From a virus, in the IMG/VR virus record IMGVR_UViG_3300005664_001428, positions 1-20,489 of that record: a DNA stretch of 20,489 nt. One strand, 5' to 3'. Positions 3,083 to 16,593 of the stretch are shown in pieces (position 1 is the stretch's first letter; every line of letters starts with the position of its first letter). Below the pieces are notes generated by a model, which did no database searches, had not been told where the DNA came from, and worked only from the letters and a program-made list of their open reading frames with translations. Made by a program: the position numbers and the translations under genes.

Positions 3083-3865
3083 TCAAGCCTTTTTCCGAAG
3101 TCCTAAGTCTTTACTTGTTCGATGTTCGATGGCACGAACAAGGTTTGCACAATCCAATAAATCTTCATGTGTTCCGCAATCAAACCAAAATCCAGAGTCT
3201 ATTTTATGAATATTAACACCTTCCAGTTTGTCCATTTCCCTAATTAGGTCAACAATTTCCAACTCGCCCCTATCCGAAGGTAATAACTTTTTTGCAACAT
3301 TTATTGCGGTTCTTGATAGATAGTATAATCCGACAACTGCATTATCGCTGACGTATTCTTTAGGTTTTTCGACTATCTTAACCATTCTTCCCAGATCATC
3401 AATTGTGACTACGCCGTATGCGGATGGATTTTTTACTTTATATGTGAAAATAGTATTCGGTAAAATATGTGAAAAATCATCATTTCCTATGAATGAATTG
3501 TCTCCGAGAATAAGAATAGCATCATCCGCATCTTTGAGAAAATTTTCTGCTAATATGAATGCTTCGGCTAATCCGTTAGGTTTGTCTTGGATTATGTATT
3601 CCAGCTTAATCCCATATACACTCCCATCCCTTAGATAGTCCTTAAACATCGTTTGCTGCTGTTTGTCCGCATTTATAATGAGAACATCTGTGCAACCCAT
3701 GTCCTGTAATGTGCGCAAGGGAAACTCGATCATGGGCTTGTTAAACACAGGAAGCAGTTGCTTAGATATACCAAACTGTGTAATTGGATGTAGACGGGTC
3801 GCGCGCCCGCCCGAAAGTACAATGCCGTACTTCTTTTTATTAACGTCTTTTCTTAAATTCTTCAT
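3083..3865 (-). CDS. rmlA: Glucose-1-phosphate thymidylyltransferase (RmlA-like)
   Basis: RmlA makes dTDP-glucose from dTTP and glucose-1-phosphate, the first step of dTDP-sugar synthesis. With the start at 3865 the protein has 260 residues, slightly shorter than the usual 285-295. Nucleotide-binding motif: GIVLSGGRATRL at 14-25. Substrate loop: SKQLLPVFNKPMIEFP at 34-49. Metal region: ILGDNSFIG near 119-127. Also VEKPKEY around 165-171 and GELEIVDL further on. The signature is unusual: GGxGTRL has become GGRATRL. An in-frame ATG at 3898 would add 11 residues, but the family normally begins just before the glycine loop, so 3865 is preferred. The start lies inside the 3' end of a 55-residue ORF (26-base overlap). 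Confidence 0.9.
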   Translation of the reverse strand: MKNLRKDVNKKKYGIVLSGGRATRLHPITQFGISKQLLPVFNKPMIEFPLRTLQDMGCTDVLIINADKQQQTMFKDYLRDGSVYGIKLEYIIQDKPNGLAEAFILAENFLKDADDAILILGDNSFIGNDDFSHILPNTIFTYKVKNPSAYGVVTIDDLGRMVKIVEKPKEYVSDNAVVGLYYLSRTAINVAKKLLPSDRGELEIVDLIREMDKLEGVNIHKIDSGFWFDCGTHEDLLDCANLVRAIEHRTSKDLGLRKKA

Positions 3866-4007
3866 ATAAACGCTGTTCCAAGAGTGCAACATAATCATTA
3901 GACTTAACTACTTCATTCATAAGTTTATCTAATACAGATTTTTTTGATAATCTTGCTGATTTAACAAGATTATCTATTTTCAAAATATTATCCGATCTTT
4001 GACTCAT
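3840..4007 (-). CDS. Small overlapping ORF between rmlB and rmlA, 55 aa
   Basis: A frame runs from ATG (4007-4005) to TAA (3842-3840). Its start lies inside the last 20 bases of rmlB, and its end overlaps the first 26 bases of rmlA in different frames. It begins MSQRSDNILKIDNLVKSARL and ends in a basic tail, EEFKKRR. The composition suggests an alpha-helical, mostly hydrophilic protein; no domain is recognised. Without it there would be a gap of about 120 bases between two otherwise tightly packed genes, which supports its being real. It may also serve to couple rmlA translation to rmlB. It could be a small regulator or a partner of the sugar enzymes, but nothing in the sequence shows this. 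Confidence 0.65.
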   Translation of the reverse strand: MSQRSDNILKIDNLVKSARLSKKSVLDKLMNEVVKSNDYVALLEQRLYEEFKKRR

Positions 4008-6114
4008 TACAATGTTTATTTACATACCACTCCACAGTCTTTTCAAGTCCTGTTTTTAAATCAATCATAGGTTTCCATCCTAATTCTCTTTTGGATTTAT
4101 TATAATCTATACAATATGTTCGGTCATGCCCTAATCTATCTTTGACATATTCTATACCCACATATGTAGGATAAAACTCATAACATTTTAAGAGAATATC
4201 CGTAACTAAGTCTATATTATATATTGTTTTATTTGTTCCAAAAAGATAACTTTCACCTATTTTGCCTTTCAGTATTACATCAATAATACCATCGCAATGA
4301 TCATCGACATAAATCCAATCTCTCGATTGTAATCCATCACCATATACTGGAACATCCATACCTTGTTTATAACACTCGATAGTCTTTGGTATCAGTTTCT
4401 CTTTATGTTGACCGGGACCATAGTTATTAGAACAATTGGTAATTATTCCTGGGAAATTATAGGTATGAACATATGATTTTAATAGAAGCTCGGCGGATGC
4501 TTTTGATGCAGAATAGGGATTATTTGGATGGTATGGAGTATTTTCATCAAATGGTTTACCGTTATTGTCTTCTACAGAACCATATACTTCATCAGTATTC
4601 CCGCATATGTGCATAATACCATTTCGCTCAACTATTAGATTTTTATTATCTTCAACTTTAACACACCATATCTTTCCTTTGTATGAAATTCTATTCACAC
4701 TATTTTGTGCTAACCCTATATTTCCTGAACGAAAATGAACAATATAGGATGGTGTGGTTGCCTTGATAACTCTATCCTTGTATATACATTTATGTTCAGG
4801 GTTACGAATATAAAATCTAGGGGACATTCCTAATTTTATAGAAATTTCGCATATATCATCACGAAGATGTGCTGATGATGTAGAAAATACTCTCATTCCG
4901 TTAGGAGTATAATGACCATCGCTATCTATAAGACCATCAAATAATGCATTTAAATATACCTCGTCATAATCCATCATCCATCTAGAAACTTTCTTATTCT
5001 TAAAACCATGACCAAATTGTTTGAAGAATTCTACCCATTCTTTTGAAGAAAAATAAATATGTTCTCCTGATTTATTTTTATGGGCGCTCCATTTTATTCC
5101 TAAATTTGTAAGCGATTGTTCTAATTTATTTCGTCCTTTATCGTTTTCGGGAACATCAAAGAATATCCTATAACTAGTAGATGTGACGAATTCTTGTGAT
5201 CCTTTGTTTAATGGATCAGTTTTTAAAAATTTCCCGGTATTAGGATCACGTCTAGTTTTATTTGACTCTTTTTTTGATAGTCCTGAAATAGATTTTATTT
5301 TATTCTTTTGAACAGCGGTGAACCCATCTCCTAAAAACATCCCACATACATAAAATAAATCATACGTAGGAACATTCCCGATTCCATTTATATTATATGT
5401 ACTATCATAAGTCCCTTTCCATGAACCCCTAGGAAAATATATATTTTTTTTGTCAACAATGTTATGTGCCTCATCGAATGTAATATTATCATTTTCCATA
5501 TAATACATTCGATGATTAGGGGTTACTAACAAATCAGTGCTTTTATCACATAAATGAAGCATGTCACCATCATAGTCCTGCACGATTATTTTCTCGATTT
5601 TCTTTTCCTCGATTAGATGTGTTTTAGAATTTATACTAAAAATTATATCTCCTTCCACCAATTCCCAATAGTTTTTTAATCCATTGGTTGTAAGGGCTTT
5701 AGTTTTTTCATCATAACAAGAAATTTGAATAAATCTTCCATCTATATCATATTTATTCCAATATTTCATAGCCTCGTCCATCAGTATATGCATACCAACA
5801 ATATTGGTATCGATGAATGATGCACTAGAATTGATTGAATTATCTACATGTGTTTGTGCAGCAAAGTTAACAACAATATCTATATCGAATTGCTTAAATA
5901 CTCCTTCTGTTATGTACTTTATATCACATTCTATAAACCTATAACGGTCATCATAGTATGATTCTTTTCTGGTATTGATTGCAGAGTAATCAAGTTTATC
6001 GACATTTATAATTTTATTAAATTGGATTTTGTTTTGATTTTCGTAAAGTCTTCTGATGAAATTCCAGCCAATAAAACCACATCCGCCAGTTACTAATATA
6101 TTATAATTTTTCAT
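3988..6114 (-). CDS. rmlB: dTDP-glucose 4,6-dehydratase (RmlB) precursor with intein
   Basis: RmlB oxidises dTDP-glucose and removes water to give dTDP-4-keto-6-deoxyglucose, using bound NAD. The 708-residue reading frame is a host enzyme of 334 residues (normal size) plus a 374-residue intein at residues 133-506. Host parts: NAD-binding TGGCGFIG at 9-16; NFAAQTHVDNS at 83-93; FIQIS before the intein; TDEVYG immediately after it; YSASK (Tyr534, Lys538; 160 and 164 in the spliced protein); and RDWIYVDDH near 598-606. The catalytic Thr-Asp-Glu therefore follows the splice junction directly. The ATG at 6114 is chosen because it begins MKNYNILVTGG as in the family. An upstream in-frame ATG at 6168 would add 18 unrelated residues inside the preceding gene. 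The 5' end overlaps that gene by 14 bases. Confidence 0.93.
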   Translation of the reverse strand: MKNYNILVTGGCGFIGWNFIRRLYENQNKIQFNKIINVDKLDYSAINTRKESYYDDRYRFIECDIKYITEGVFKQFDIDIVVNFAAQTHVDNSINSSASFIDTNIVGMHILMDEAMKYWNKYDIDGRFIQISCYDEKTKALTTNGLKNYWELVEGDIIFSINSKTHLIEEKKIEKIIVQDYDGDMLHLCDKSTDLLVTPNHRMYYMENDNITFDEAHNIVDKKNIYFPRGSWKGTYDSTYNINGIGNVPTYDLFYVCGMFLGDGFTAVQKNKIKSISGLSKKESNKTRRDPNTGKFLKTDPLNKGSQEFVTSTSYRIFFDVPENDKGRNKLEQSLTNLGIKWSAHKNKSGEHIYFSSKEWVEFFKQFGHGFKNKKVSRWMMDYDEVYLNALFDGLIDSDGHYTPNGMRVFSTSSAHLRDDICEISIKLGMSPRFYIRNPEHKCIYKDRVIKATTPSYIVHFRSGNIGLAQNSVNRISYKGKIWCVKVEDNKNLIVERNGIMHICGNTDEVYGSVEDNNGKPFDENTPYHPNNPYSASKASAELLLKSYVHTYNFPGIITNCSNNYGPGQHKEKLIPKTIECYKQGMDVPVYGDGLQSRDWIYVDDHCDGIIDVILKGKIGESYLFGTNKTIYNIDLVTDILLKCYEFYPTYVGIEYVKDRLGHDRTYCIDYNKSKRELGWKPMIDLKTGLEKTVEWYVNKHCNESKIG
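4597..5718 (-). mobile_element. Intein with LAGLIDADG homing endonuclease, inside rmlB
   Basis: This in-frame insertion splits the RmlB motif IS-TDEVYG. It starts with Cys (CYDEKTKALTTNG, block A) and ends with Asn (RNGIMHICGN, blocks F and G) before a Thr, so splicing would use Cys1, the terminal Asn and Thr+1. Block B is visible as LLVTPNHR, with the usual Thr and His. The middle part holds two LAGLIDADG helices: CGMFLGDGF (precursor residues 257-265) and ALFDGLIDSDGHY (391-402). Both acidic catalytic positions are present, so the endonuclease looks intact. The residue before the terminal Asn is Gly rather than the common His, which is tolerated in some inteins. Length is 374 residues, typical of a full bifunctional intein. 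Confidence 0.93.
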
Positions 6115-6289
6115 ATATTTTGGGTTCCCAAGGACTAGGACTTGTGGTACATTTACACTTTTTATCAATCACATCAGATTCACATCTACGACAAAACCAA
6201 CCAAAACTAGGAGCACCTGCTTGTATACAGTATTCTTCCCCGAGTTTAGCCAGTTCTATACATCGTTCTTTCGATATTTCAAATTTCAT
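6101..6289 (-). CDS. Small Cys-rich protein, possible zinc-binding, 62 aa
   Basis: A small protein beginning MKFEISKERCIELAKLGEEY. It has a helical N-terminal half and a Cys cluster C-x2-C-x8-C-x-C at residues 33-47 (FCRRCESDVIDKKCKC), which could bind one zinc ion. The stop of the upstream gene is joined to its start as TAA-T-ATG, and its last 14 bases overlap the start of rmlB. It therefore sits co-translated between two sugar-nucleotide enzymes. No family is recognised. A role as a small regulator or as a chaperone for its neighbours would be guesswork. Confidence 0.75.
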   Translation of the reverse strand: MKFEISKERCIELAKLGEEYCIQAGAPSFGWFCRRCESDVIDKKCKCTTSPSPWEPKIYEKL

Positions 6290-6290
6290 A

Positions 6291-7178
6291 TTACCAAAAC
6301 GGAGTTTCGTCTATTTTATTCCAATTTTCAAATGTTTTCTTTAATGAATCCCTTACAGGCAGCATTCCACATCCAGTTTTTTCGAGTTTAGTTGTATCAA
6401 GTACACAGTTACTTCGGGGTGTTCTAATGACTTTATCGAATTCTTCTTGTGATTCAAAATATTCGTATACATCCTTCGTTATACCATATTCTGCTGCAAT
6501 CTCCAGAACTTCTTTTGCAGTTATTGCACCGGGATTAGTCATATTATATGTGCCGTATTCATTGCCTGATGCATATAAATTATAACAAGATTGAACAAAT
6601 TCATCGACATTTGTTAAAGAATTGGATACTGACCAAACTTTGGGATATTTCAGAAGTTTGCTTATATAGTTCTTATCTTCATCTATATGATTAAATGGCA
6701 TCCTCAAACGGCATATATAATGTTTATCCCATGTTTTTCTTACAAGGGTTTCCCCAAGAGCTTTAGTGCCAGAATACCATGATCCCTCACCATATTGAAA
6801 TGAGAAATTAGGAATACTGTTTTCATTATGCGTTTTTTCATTTATTGTTGTTTTGAAGATGCATCCACTAGATACGTGAATTAGTGGTATTCCTAAAAGT
6901 TTAACATGTTCGCTCAATATTTCGGGAAACACTGTGTTTAATGATAGACATTCCCTTTTATGATCCTCACATGCATCTACGTTAGGTTTTCCTGTATATC
7001 CAACACAATTAATGATTAGCTTCACATTACGAGGTAATGCACAGAAATTAATCAGTATATTTCTATTATTTTCAGACTCTCTGCCCATCTCATATATCGA
7101 ATACTCAATACCCTTATAATCAAAGAATTTTTGAAATCTTTTACTAATATATCCGTTTTTTCCTAAAATTAAAATCAC
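6291..7178 (-). CDS. NRS/ER-like nucleotide-sugar 3,5-epimerase/4-reductase
   Basis: This 295-residue short-chain dehydrogenase/reductase belongs to the RmlD-like branch. The N-terminal dinucleotide motif is ILGKNGYI (4-11), close to the GKTGWIG form of plant NRS/ER. The catalytic Tyr-x-x-x-Lys is YSGTK (135-139). Further stretches match what I recall of plant NRS/ER and the Mimivirus L780 enzyme more than bacterial RmlD: NCVGYTGKPNVDACEDHK (57-74), SSGCIF with Cys106, RLRMPFNHIDEDKNYISKL (157-175), and TPRSNCVLDTTKLEKTG near the C-terminus. Those enzymes carry out both 3,5-epimerisation and 4-keto reduction, turning the RmlB product into dTDP- or UDP-L-rhamnose. The activity is inferred from similarity; plain RmlD activity or another deoxysugar is possible. 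It is the first gene of the leftward operon. Confidence 0.82.
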   Translation of the reverse strand: MILILGKNGYISKRFQKFFDYKGIEYSIYEMGRESENNRNILINFCALPRNVKLIINCVGYTGKPNVDACEDHKRECLSLNTVFPEILSEHVKLLGIPLIHVSSGCIFKTTINEKTHNENSIPNFSFQYGEGSWYSGTKALGETLVRKTWDKHYICRLRMPFNHIDEDKNYISKLLKYPKVWSVSNSLTNVDEFVQSCYNLYASGNEYGTYNMTNPGAITAKEVLEIAAEYGITKDVYEYFESQEEFDKVIRTPRSNCVLDTTKLEKTGCGMLPVRDSLKKTFENWNKIDETPFW

Positions 7179-13317: not shown

Positions 13318-14520
13318 ATGTATTGTGTATACAAAATAACAAATACCTTAAATAATAAAGTATATATAGGAAAGACGAAAAATTTCAATAGACGCATGAA
13401 GGAACATTGTTCCACCGTGACATTGGCGATAGGAAAAGCGATATGTAAATATGGTAAAGATAATTTCTTATTTGAAATATTGTATCAGACAGATGATATA
13501 GATTTGCTTGGATTAAAAGAATTTGAATATATTAATATATTCAATAGTATGGTTCCAAATGGATATAATTATACGAAAAAAACGGACAGTAAGATTATAT
13601 TTGCAGATTCTACTAGAAGACTACTGTCAATCAGTTCACAGAAGAAAATAAGACCGAAGGGAGCATCTTCGACTTCTAAATACTTCGGAGTGGCTCTACC
13701 ACGAAGATCGAATCATTATGCTACTGTTATGGTTTTTGATGGAAAACGCATAAGGCGTTCTGCTAATTCTGAGATGGAAGCAGCCGAACAATATGATAAA
13801 ATTTCGATATATTTATGGGGAGTTGATGCAAAACTTAATTTCCCCGAAAAGTTGAGTTTTTATCTAAGTCTAGACTTAGATAAAAACTTTTCAGATTTTA
13901 TGTCGATGAAATCGACCGCAAAAAGAATAACATATATACCAGACGAAAACACCAAAACGATAATTGCTATTAAAGCACAAAGAGCAGGAAAGTCGAAGAC
14001 AGAATATTCATCATCAAAATATATAGGAGTTAGATTACCGAAAAACGGTAAATCTTTTACAGCATCAATACAATTCAACGGAAAAACCTATCATAAAAAA
14101 GTGGAAGATGAAATAAAGGCTGCTGAATTGTATGATAAAATGGCTTTGTTTTGGTATGGTAATTGTGCAAAGCTAAACTTTCCCCAAAAACTGCCTTCTT
14201 ATATGCTTGAGAATTTAGAAGAGATTAATAAAGAATTCATTTCTCCAATAAGAAAATTGTCAATATACAATTTTGTTACACAACATAAAACATCAAAAAA
14301 ATGGGTCGTATCCACTAAGTTATATACAGATAAACTTCGGCTGGGATTATATGAGTCGGAACTAGAAGTTGCTCGGATAGTAGATTATATAATAATATAT
14401 TTTAAATTGGAAAAATCGCTTAATTTCCCGACGTATTCATATGACAGCATTAAAATACAGACAGTTATAGAAAATGGTATAAATCACAACACCAAAATTC
14501 GCTTGACGGACGATATGTAA
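13318..14520 (+). CDS. GIY-YIG homing endonuclease with AP2 DNA-binding repeats
   Basis: A 400-residue free-standing mobile endonuclease. The N-terminal 95 residues are a GIY-YIG nuclease: VYKITN then NNKVYIGKTKNFNRRMKEH (catalytic Tyr and Arg region), and LKEFEYINIFN supplying the Glu. Two clear AP2-type DNA-binding repeats follow, at about 117-178 (SKYFGVALPRR to AKLNFPEKL) and 231-292 (SKYIGVRLPKNGKSF to AKLNFPQKL). A weaker third spans about 318-372 (SLNFPTY at its end). Each repeat shares Gly-Val near the start, Ala-Ala-Glu-x-Tyr-Asp-Lys in the helix, and LNFP. Such proteins cut a target allele and copy their own gene into it. The gene has its own promoter-like box and interrupts an otherwise tightly coupled gene row. 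Confidence 0.92.
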   Translation: MYCVYKITNTLNNKVYIGKTKNFNRRMKEHCSTVTLAIGKAICKYGKDNFLFEILYQTDDIDLLGLKEFEYINIFNSMVPNGYNYTKKTDSKIIFADSTRRLLSISSQKKIRPKGASSTSKYFGVALPRRSNHYATVMVFDGKRIRRSANSEMEAAEQYDKISIYLWGVDAKLNFPEKLSFYLSLDLDKNFSDFMSMKSTAKRITYIPDENTKTIIAIKAQRAGKSKTEYSSSKYIGVRLPKNGKSFTASIQFNGKTYHKKVEDEIKAAELYDKMALFWYGNCAKLNFPQKLPSYMLENLEEINKEFISPIRKLSIYNFVTQHKTSKKWVVSTKLYTDKLRLGLYESELEVARIVDYIIIYFKLEKSLNFPTYSYDSIKIQTVIENGINHNTKIRLTDDM

Positions 14521-14541: not shown

Positions 14542-16593
14542 ATGAAATTATTAATAAATAAACGCAACGGTGAACAAAATATCCCAACCAATTATATGAT
14601 ATTGGTCGATACATCAGGATCAATGTACCAATCTATAAATTCTCTCAAGGAAACCCTGATGAGTATAGGTAGTAACATTGGAACAGACGATACCCTTAGC
14701 ATAGGGTGGTTTTCAGGATATAATTCATTTGAATGGGTATGTACTGGATGGAAGTGCAACACCGACAATCTCGAAAACTTAGTAAATACTAAAATTTATT
14801 CCCGAGGACTAACTTGTTACAACCAAATTCTTCAAACAGTTGAGAACACTTGGAACAATGTTTCTCTTCTTACAGGATGCGAAAACTTTTCGTTATTTTG
14901 GTTATCGGATGGATGGCCCAACAGCAATTCACCCGAAAGCGAAACCATCAATCTGTGTAAAAAGCTTTCATCTAAGTTCTCTGCAAAGACTATTGTAGGA
15001 TATGGCAGCAACTATAATCGAAAGCTTCTTCTAGATATGACAGAAGCAATCAATGGAACATTTAGTCATATTTCAAATTATACTGAATTAACCGCAAGTG
15101 GCGAAGTTCTTGTTAAGTCTAAAAAGACTGTTAAGATTGTTGATCTTGATAAATGTTATGATGTGATTTGGCAAGTGACTGATTCTGAGATTATTCCGCT
15201 GGTGTGTAAGGACAAACAGGTTGAAGTATTAGAAACTGAAAACAACGGTGAACTGTTTGCAATTGATTTTACCGAAATCGATAATCTTCCAGATGATCAA
15301 CTCAAAGACGGTAAGTTTGTTTATTCACTTGCATATATTCTATCACAGAAAAATCTTGCAAATCTAGGCGTTTCTGTGCTTCGAAAAGCAGGAGATGCAC
15401 TTAGAGCCAAAATGTTACAGAAGTCGTTCACAGTGGCTCAGAAAGGGCGTTCTGAGAACGATCTAAAGGCATTCGCATTAGTAGGTTCTACTATTAATAA
15501 GCAAACCGTGCCAATTACTGTTTCTCTTGAGTCGTTTGTTAAATCGATCAAGGATAATCTTGGAAAAGTATCCATTGATTTGGCTAAGTCTCCATATAAA
15601 TCCGTGACCAGATCAGGCGAGGATGTCAGTAAAGTAGAATTTAAGACAAACGATTCATCTGCTAAAATTGTAGGAATCACTGGAAACGAAGATCGTGCGA
15701 ATATTTCATTCCTAACAGTTCGTGAAGGACAGATTGAACAATATACTGATATTGATTTTGGTAATCGAGTATTGGCATATAATGCGACTGTTGAAAACGG
15801 CGGTCTTTCAGGAAATTCCGTGATTGAGTTACCTATTAAGGCTCCGACATTTAGGAACTATACATTTGTTGCAAATGGTGACTTTAATTATGATGCAATC
15901 TCCTTAGAGTTTGATAATAGCGTTGGAGCGATAAAAGCATCGTTGGGGTATACAGTCGATCCTAATGAATCTATTGATCTCTTCGACGAAAATCAAAAGA
16001 CTATTAAGATTAAAGATTTTGCTAATCTTTATAAGGCTCTTATTTCGGAGAAAGCTCATGCAAGCGTTCTTCGGTTCTATGTTAAGAAATATTCTGAACA
16101 AAAAAATCTAGTCGATCTTCGTGTACAGAATTATGGTGTCGAAGGTGCTAAACTTCTTGAAGAAATGGGCCTTGATTCGCAGATGCGTTATGCACCGAAA
16201 AAGGCATATAAACCAAAAGATGAAAATGCAGACTTCGTTCCGTTCATTGAACTAACGGCACAATTGAAAGGTGCATCAACTATCTCGGCAAGTAAATCAT
16301 TTGAAAAATATGAGAAAAAAGGCAAACCAAATGTTGGTGATGATATTTGTTGGCCTTTGTTTGAGAAATATGAAAAGCAACTCGTTGCTCTTGGGCAAGA
16401 GACATTCGTCGAATTCTGTCAGAAAACATTAGAAGGTGTCGAGGATACTGTTGACCTACTTTCTCAGAAAGTGTCATCAATCAAATTCTTCCTCATGATT
16501 ACCAATAGCTGGTTTGTGGATGTTGATAAATCTGATAGTTTTGAATATGATGGTCTTGTCATCAATACCAAGGTCGTAAACGAATATCTATAA
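14542..16593 (+). CDS. von Willebrand factor A-domain protein, 683 aa
   Basis: The N-terminal domain (about 15-190) is a vWA fold with a complete metal-ion adhesion site: Asp23-x-Ser25-x-Ser27 in MILVDTSGSM, Thr91 in RGLTCYN, and Asp123 in WLSDGWP. vWA domains bind partner proteins through a metal ion. The remaining 490 residues are not recognised; they contain many beta-type segments and a helical C-terminus (LLSQKVSSIKFFLMITNSWF). No signal peptide or transmembrane helix is seen. Codon usage looks richer in AAG, CTT and GTT than in the neighbours, which may mean high expression or a different origin (impression only). The ATG is preceded by TAA-T, but no gene now ends at that TAA. Large phages carry such proteins with unknown function. 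Confidence 0.88.
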   Translation: MKLLINKRNGEQNIPTNYMILVDTSGSMYQSINSLKETLMSIGSNIGTDDTLSIGWFSGYNSFEWVCTGWKCNTDNLENLVNTKIYSRGLTCYNQILQTVENTWNNVSLLTGCENFSLFWLSDGWPNSNSPESETINLCKKLSSKFSAKTIVGYGSNYNRKLLLDMTEAINGTFSHISNYTELTASGEVLVKSKKTVKIVDLDKCYDVIWQVTDSEIIPLVCKDKQVEVLETENNGELFAIDFTEIDNLPDDQLKDGKFVYSLAYILSQKNLANLGVSVLRKAGDALRAKMLQKSFTVAQKGRSENDLKAFALVGSTINKQTVPITVSLESFVKSIKDNLGKVSIDLAKSPYKSVTRSGEDVSKVEFKTNDSSAKIVGITGNEDRANISFLTVREGQIEQYTDIDFGNRVLAYNATVENGGLSGNSVIELPIKAPTFRNYTFVANGDFNYDAISLEFDNSVGAIKASLGYTVDPNESIDLFDENQKTIKIKDFANLYKALISEKAHASVLRFYVKKYSEQKNLVDLRVQNYGVEGAKLLEEMGLDSQMRYAPKKAYKPKDENADFVPFIELTAQLKGASTISASKSFEKYEKKGKPNVGDDICWPLFEKYEKQLVALGQETFVEFCQKTLEGVEDTVDLLSQKVSSIKFFLMITNSWFVDVDKSDSFEYDGLVINTKVVNEYL

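Follow-up and report, generated by a model that had tools for sequence, protein, structure and literature searches.

Inteins located at active sites and inteins of phages are both well known (PMC5050341; PMC7765530). The phage intein in the RDF gp51 of Bethlehem, which resembles the element described here in its phage host, in the presence of glycine for the penultimate histidine and in its insertion within a functional motif, splices, and precursor accumulates when this glycine is changed to histidine; a block F histidine has been proposed as the substitute helper for a penultimate-Gly phage intein (PMC5050341). Penultimate-Gly phage inteins such as that of gp51 reside mostly in proteins that act on nucleic acids, unlike the dTDP-glucose 4,6-dehydratase (RmlB) considered in this report (PMC5050341), and a survey of mycobacteriophage inteins found none in oxidoreductases. 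A preliminary description of the present DNA had called a sugar-nucleotide enzyme an unusual host, and this holds, with the qualification that there is a precedent in the halobacterial UDP-glucose 6-dehydrogenase, which carries the intein 'udp' (PMC4071816). That intein is like ours in having a sugar-nucleotide oxidoreductase as host, but it belongs to another enzyme family and to an archaeal chromosome, and the two are likened by host type alone (PMC4071816). In the open-access literature we found no report of an intein in RmlB, a 4,6-dehydratase or a GDP-mannose dehydratase, which is weak evidence of absence. What is new here is the host enzyme and the insertion site; the mobile intein is of a kind already known.

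The window, by which we mean the whole stretch of DNA analysed, is the 20,489-base virus record IMGVR_UViG_3300005664_001428 (positions 1 to 20,489). Its phage rmlB gene is almost certainly interrupted, just before the codon for the catalytic threonine, by a class 1-like mobile intein that contains a LAGLIDADG homing endonuclease, for which we predict both splicing and homing. The precursor reading frame has 708 codons on the minus strand, starts with the ATG at 6114 and is closed by a stop codon at 3988-3990; by translation the precursor is 708 aa and the exteins joined without the intein are 334 aa, in agreement with the product of about 334 residues that had been foreseen. The intein itself, 1122 nt or 374 codons with 0 stops and 0 frameshifts, extends on the minus strand from the TGT of Cys1 (5716-5718) to the AAT of Asn374 (4597-4599), and is followed by the ACT of Thr+1 (4594-4596). 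The interval 4597-5718 in the preliminary description was thus base-exact from the Cys1 codon to the Asn374 codon. The parts of the gene, together with two putative sugar-pathway genes, are located as follows.

3988 to 6114, minus strand: rmlB precursor gene (N-extein, intein and C-extein); TIGR01181 E 4e-100, PF16363 E 8e-60.
5719 to 6114, minus strand: N-extein, RmlB residues 1-132, with the end FIQIS and the Rossmann nucleotide-binding part TGGCGFIG.
4597 to 5718, minus strand: intein, 374 aa, Cys1 to Asn374.
5512 to 5523, minus strand: block B TxxH (T66-P-N-H69), kept in 16/16 inteins compared.
4717 to 5406, minus strand: LAGLIDADG homing endonuclease domain, about residues 105-334; PF14528 E 6e-4 and I-DmoI alignment.
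5323 to 5349, minus strand: LAGLIDADG motif 1, VCGMFLGDG (D131); Asp in 16/16.
4915 to 4941, minus strand: LAGLIDADG motif 2, FDGLIDSDG (D267); Asp in 16/16.
4597 to 4683, minus strand: blocks F and G, YKGKIWCVKVEDNKNLIVERNGIMHICGN, with Cys F:4, Lys F:13, penultimate Gly and terminal Asn.
4588 to 4596, minus strand: Thr+1-Asp-Glu, predicted splicing nucleophile and RmlB catalytic triad, from the sequence and alignment to 1g1a.
3991 to 4596, minus strand: C-extein, spliced-RmlB residues 133-334, with the catalytic Tyr/Lys in YSASK.
3083 to 3898, minus strand: rmlA, glucose-1-phosphate thymidylyltransferase; TIGR01207 E 7e-68, below the equivalog cut-off.
6291 to 7178, minus strand: rmlD-like reductase; TIGR01214 E 1e-12, well below the equivalog cut-off.

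On the precursor, the Pfam match to GDP_Man_Dehyd/Epimerase was split in two, with Intein_splicing (E 1e-7; score 32.1, slightly under the gathering score of 35.8) and LAGLIDADG_3 (E 6e-4) between the halves. We modelled the intein with AlphaFold2 from an alignment of 16 related inteins (pLDDT 88.8, pTM 0.86), and observed that the top Foldseek matches of the model were all inteins, with full-length inteins ranked first. Structural alignment with VIA-align, in which full inteins also came first, gave Z values of 25.1 for TliVMA (305 residues), 25.0 for 2cw7, 22.4 for PhoVMA, 20.4 for PI-PfuI and about 19-21 for PI-SceI, and the best alignments (TliVMA, 2cw7, PI-PfuI) spanned 305-312 residues; residues 105-334 aligned with I-DmoI (Z 14.9). 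A phmmer comparison of the intein with PDB sequences gave no match, and it is thus fold comparison that links this element to the solved inteins. That we are dealing with a BIL or hedgehog-type Hint domain, or with an assembly chimera, is scarcely credible: the Hint fold is common to BIL and hedgehog domains, which aligned with the model at Z about 15, but the best matches were full-length inteins with an endonuclease (Z 25), and a chimera is excluded by the exact empty site and the 13 same-site copies from other assemblies that are described below. These analyses confirmed the element as a class 1-like intein that extends from Cys1 to Asn374 and contains a LAGLIDADG endonuclease domain.

The window intein shares with TliVMA, PI-PfuI and PI-SceI the combination of Hint and endonuclease domains, Cys1, TxxH, a terminal Asn and a +1 nucleophile, and differs from them in its sugar-nucleotide dehydratase host and in its penultimate Gly, Cys F:4 and Lys F:13; sequence identity to these 3 inteins in structural alignment was 13-19%. 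Among the SDR inteins compared, Cys1, Thr66, His69, the terminal Asn and both LAGLIDADG Asp residues (131 and 267) were kept in 16/16, as was Cys at F:4. The presence of this last residue might suggest a class 3 intein, with the WCT triplet (Trp B:12, Cys F:4, Thr G:5), instead of class 1. However, Cys1 is found in all of them, B:12 is Met, Phe or Tyr and not Trp, and G:5 is Cys or Ser and not Thr; in the window these 3 positions are Met, Cys and Cys, with two triplet residues missing. Cys1 together with Met at B:12 and Cys at G:5 excludes the WCT triplet, and we regard a class 3 assignment as highly improbable. In L067, an Omnitrophica genome, motif 2 of the intein reads SDV in place of SDG, perhaps the onset of endonuclease decay.

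The penultimate His and the block F His are the usual helpers of Asn cyclisation, although the former is not universal. We observed that the penultimate residue is Gly in 16/16 SDR inteins, the usual His being absent, and that F:13, the block F His position, is Lys in 13 of the 14 RmlB inteins; the assignment of this column is supported by the presence of His there in L070 (RmlB) and in L154 (GDP-mannose dehydratase). A penultimate Gly does not disqualify the element from class 1, since exceptions that splice are known (PMC5050341). The substitute helper, block F His, is absent too in most RmlB inteins, and with both helper residues missing the window intein may splice slowly or conditionally. 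A degenerate intein that has lost splicing or homing and left rmlB dead, which the lack of a helper His at G:6 or F:13 and the fragmentary nature of the window could be taken to indicate, is very unlikely in view of the 374-codon open frame, the nucleophiles and both endonuclease Asp residues kept in 16/16, and the intact extein active site; also, the Gly/Lys pair is a conserved feature of these inteins whether from phages, bacteria or archaea, a pattern not expected from decay. The same conserved non-canonical residues, with Cys1 and Cys F:4 in 16/16, could alternatively reflect conditional splicing, responsive to redox, temperature or metal, that would switch surface-sugar synthesis post-translationally in infection. 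Conditional inteins are known, and an intein placed at an active site would turn the enzyme strictly on or off. Yet homing alone explains the distribution, and the widely scattered hosts speak against a phage-specific role; we consider such a switch unlikely.

Turning to the host enzyme, the two matches of the precursor to TIGR01181 (RmlB) became one continuous match when the intein was removed, and the score rose from 335 to 359 bits; the spliced protein, at 358.8 bits, is just under the equivalog cut-off of 365.1 bits. Alignment with the solved RmlB structures 6bi4, 1g1a and 1bxk placed the splice junction within the invariant STDEVYG, between its S and its T, and so upheld the original proposal that the intein splits IS from TDEVYG with the catalytic Thr as Thr+1. 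Thr+1 and the Asp and Glu that follow it correspond to T133-D134-E135 of 1g1a (counted along the structure alignment), the residues that in RmlB act as catalytic Thr and as the Asp/Glu pair for acid-base catalysis. The Thr-Asp-Glu triad, YxxxK and the nucleotide-binding GxxGxxG are all present in the window RmlB, and S132, T133, D134, E135, Y160 and K164 are invariant in the spliced exteins of six phage lineages. The exteins of the other phage lineages are only 30-38% identical to that of the window, and invariance of the active site despite such divergence argues that selection still sees a working enzyme. Judged from its sequence, the host without the intein is a normal 334-aa dTDP-glucose 4,6-dehydratase with every active-site residue, and Thr+1 doubles as predicted splicing nucleophile and RmlB catalytic residue. 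Before splicing, the TDE triad would be separated from its own strand, and for this reason the precursor should be inactive. A model of the full precursor (pTM 0.52) carries little weight; the TDE segment, residues 507-534, is among its least confident parts, which would fit, weakly, with an active site not yet formed in the precursor.

The RmlB nearest to that of the window, 55% identical, is intein-free (L071/L072), and in alignment to the L071 protein the gap corresponded to precursor residues 133-506, exactly the whole intein. The L071 rmlB gene lies between genes for an RmlD-like protein (43%) and a Dda-like helicase (50%). In the window rmlB has the same two genes around it, and on the helicase side rmlA and a gene for a small nucleotide pyrophosphohydrolase intervene. 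In the extein tree, the window and L071/L072 were grouped at 100/100, and a single clade of intein-bearing RmlBs was rejected (p-AU 5e-7) by this tree, which has several long branches. The RmlB inteins came together as a single group in 92% of the 200 bootstrap trees, with moderate branch support (76/94). Pairwise identities in the cellular genomes disagreed in both directions: in some pairs the inteins are more alike than the exteins, as in L065/L066 (73% in the intein versus 55% in the extein), and in one pair, L068/L070, the order was reversed (50% versus 72%). Exteins that do not follow the intein tree imply horizontal homing, and horizontal movement by this route is the simplest account.

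We found 13 more RmlB genes broken at the same Ser132/Thr133 bond, in 5 phage lineages and 8 cellular genomes. The phage lineages, from scans of viral contigs, are L004 (406 kb), L005, L006 (219 kb), L007/L008 (239 kb and 43 kb) and L035/L041/L044/L062, the last recovered by a DNA-pattern scan. A search for other phage RmlB genes with and without the insertion, as had been suggested, thus gave an occupied site in 5 lineages and an empty one in L071; among the 239 records of the phages collection, none covered 80% of the precursor. Two candidates were set aside: MT835535 (H16), matched in three pieces over 2.4 kb, has an ordinary intein-less rml cluster, and the match in Prevotella phage Lak-A1 comes from a related intein that interrupts a different host protein. 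In cellular genomes, a scan with a two-sequence alignment as query found none, and the same scan with a five-sequence alignment found seven: Diapherotrites (L064), Omnitrophica (L065 and L067), an Actinomycetota bacterium (L066), Levybacteria (L068), Staskawiczbacteria (L069) and Altarchaeum (L070); an eighth, L160, was added by phylum search. The hosts span CPR, Omnitrophota, Actinomycetota, and DPANN and Altarchaeum archaea, these assignments being those of metagenome bins, which could be partly wrong, with L067 on a 4-kb contig. L064, L066 and L070 exceed the RmlB equivalog cut-off with the intein left in, and in L065, L066, L068 and L070 rmlB is surrounded by other sugar-nucleotide or rml-like genes (by eye from ORF starts). 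Sampling by strong matches gave 4 of 285 genomes in the Omnitrophota phylum, 2 of 380 in the Levybacteria phylum, and 1/87, 2/296 (one with an NAD synthetase-like host) and 1/29 in further genome sets; the intein is rare and scattered among the cellular genomes sampled. Recurrence of the same insert at the same site in other phages and in some uncultured bacteria and archaea argues for a real mobile element.

Two sister inteins from genomes of the Omnitrophota phylum interrupt other extended SDRs at the matching catalytic Ser/Thr: L154 a GDP-mannose 4,6-dehydratase (FAG–intein–SSEMFG) and L153 an epimerase-like SDR (YCS–intein–TNKIYG). Related phage inteins in TerL, ThyX, radical-SAM-like and glycosyltransferase proteins (L010-L034) are 23-35% identical to the window intein and, like it, have the C-terminal ERNG/RRNG...GN motif, Cys1 and Cys at F:4; they differ in host genes and targets and lie mostly outside the RmlB group, with L010 inside or beside it. 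More broadly, relatives ending in Gly-Asn were seen in L010-L014, L020-L034, L003, L155-L159 and L164, in hosts named by eye as TerL, ThyX, radical-SAM-like, glycosyltransferase, DNA polymerase, portal, phosphoesterase, RecT-like, ribonucleotide reductase, aminotransferase and NAD synthetase; the terminal residue of the L026 intein is Gln, not Asn. Beside the intein-bearing rmlB of L005, the TerL gene (3962-6226, plus strand) has an apparent second, different intein at Walker A (FQSGKG–...VTHN–TTIGS).

The preliminary description had made rhamnose synthesis dependent on splicing. RmlA, RmlB and an RmlD-like protein are present, in keeping with this, but the RmlD-like protein is far below its cut-off and no RmlC was recognised within the 20-kb window; the final sugar may or may not be rhamnose, and the dependence of rhamnose synthesis on splicing has only partial support. 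Elsewhere in the window there is a free-standing gene for a GIY-YIG endonuclease in which segments at the C-terminus are repeated (13318-14520, plus strand; Pfam GIY-YIG E 2e-10), the second homing-type nuclease of this phage fragment, and a gene (14542-16593, plus strand) whose 683-aa product matches von Willebrand A weakly and is related to phrog_2426, a phage family of unknown function.

For the class 1-like mobile intein that we favour, splicing would begin after translation with an N-S acyl shift at Cys1 and transfer of the N-extein to Thr+1 as a branched ester; cyclisation of Asn374 would then free the intein, and an O-N shift would link Ser132 to Thr133, which would thereupon act as the catalytic Thr of RmlB. 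Homing would start with endonuclease cleavage of an intein-free rmlB at the conserved codons for IS-TDEVYG, and the intein would be copied into the cut gene during repair. Since Ser/Thr is retained at this position in extended SDR sugar-nucleotide enzymes, an intein that inserts here finds a +1 nucleophile already in place as well as a conserved DNA target. It is conceivable, if doubtful, that a single mobile intein lineage has become a specialist for the catalytic Ser/Thr position in extended SDRs (RmlB, GDP-mannose dehydratase, epimerase) across phages, bacteria and archaea, with the Gly/Lys site making surface-sugar synthesis conditional on splicing.

The conserved loss of both helper His residues offers a clean test of Asn cyclisation without them, with RmlB as a simple enzymatic read-out for splicing, and a single residue would serve both as splicing nucleophile and as catalytic Thr of the host. 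To intein research, which is centred on DNA-handling proteins, the locus contributes a site of insertion in sugar-nucleotide metabolism, and the scatter of the intein over phages, CPR, Omnitrophota, Actinomycetota and archaea, together with the syntenic empty site, makes it a natural case for the reach of homing.
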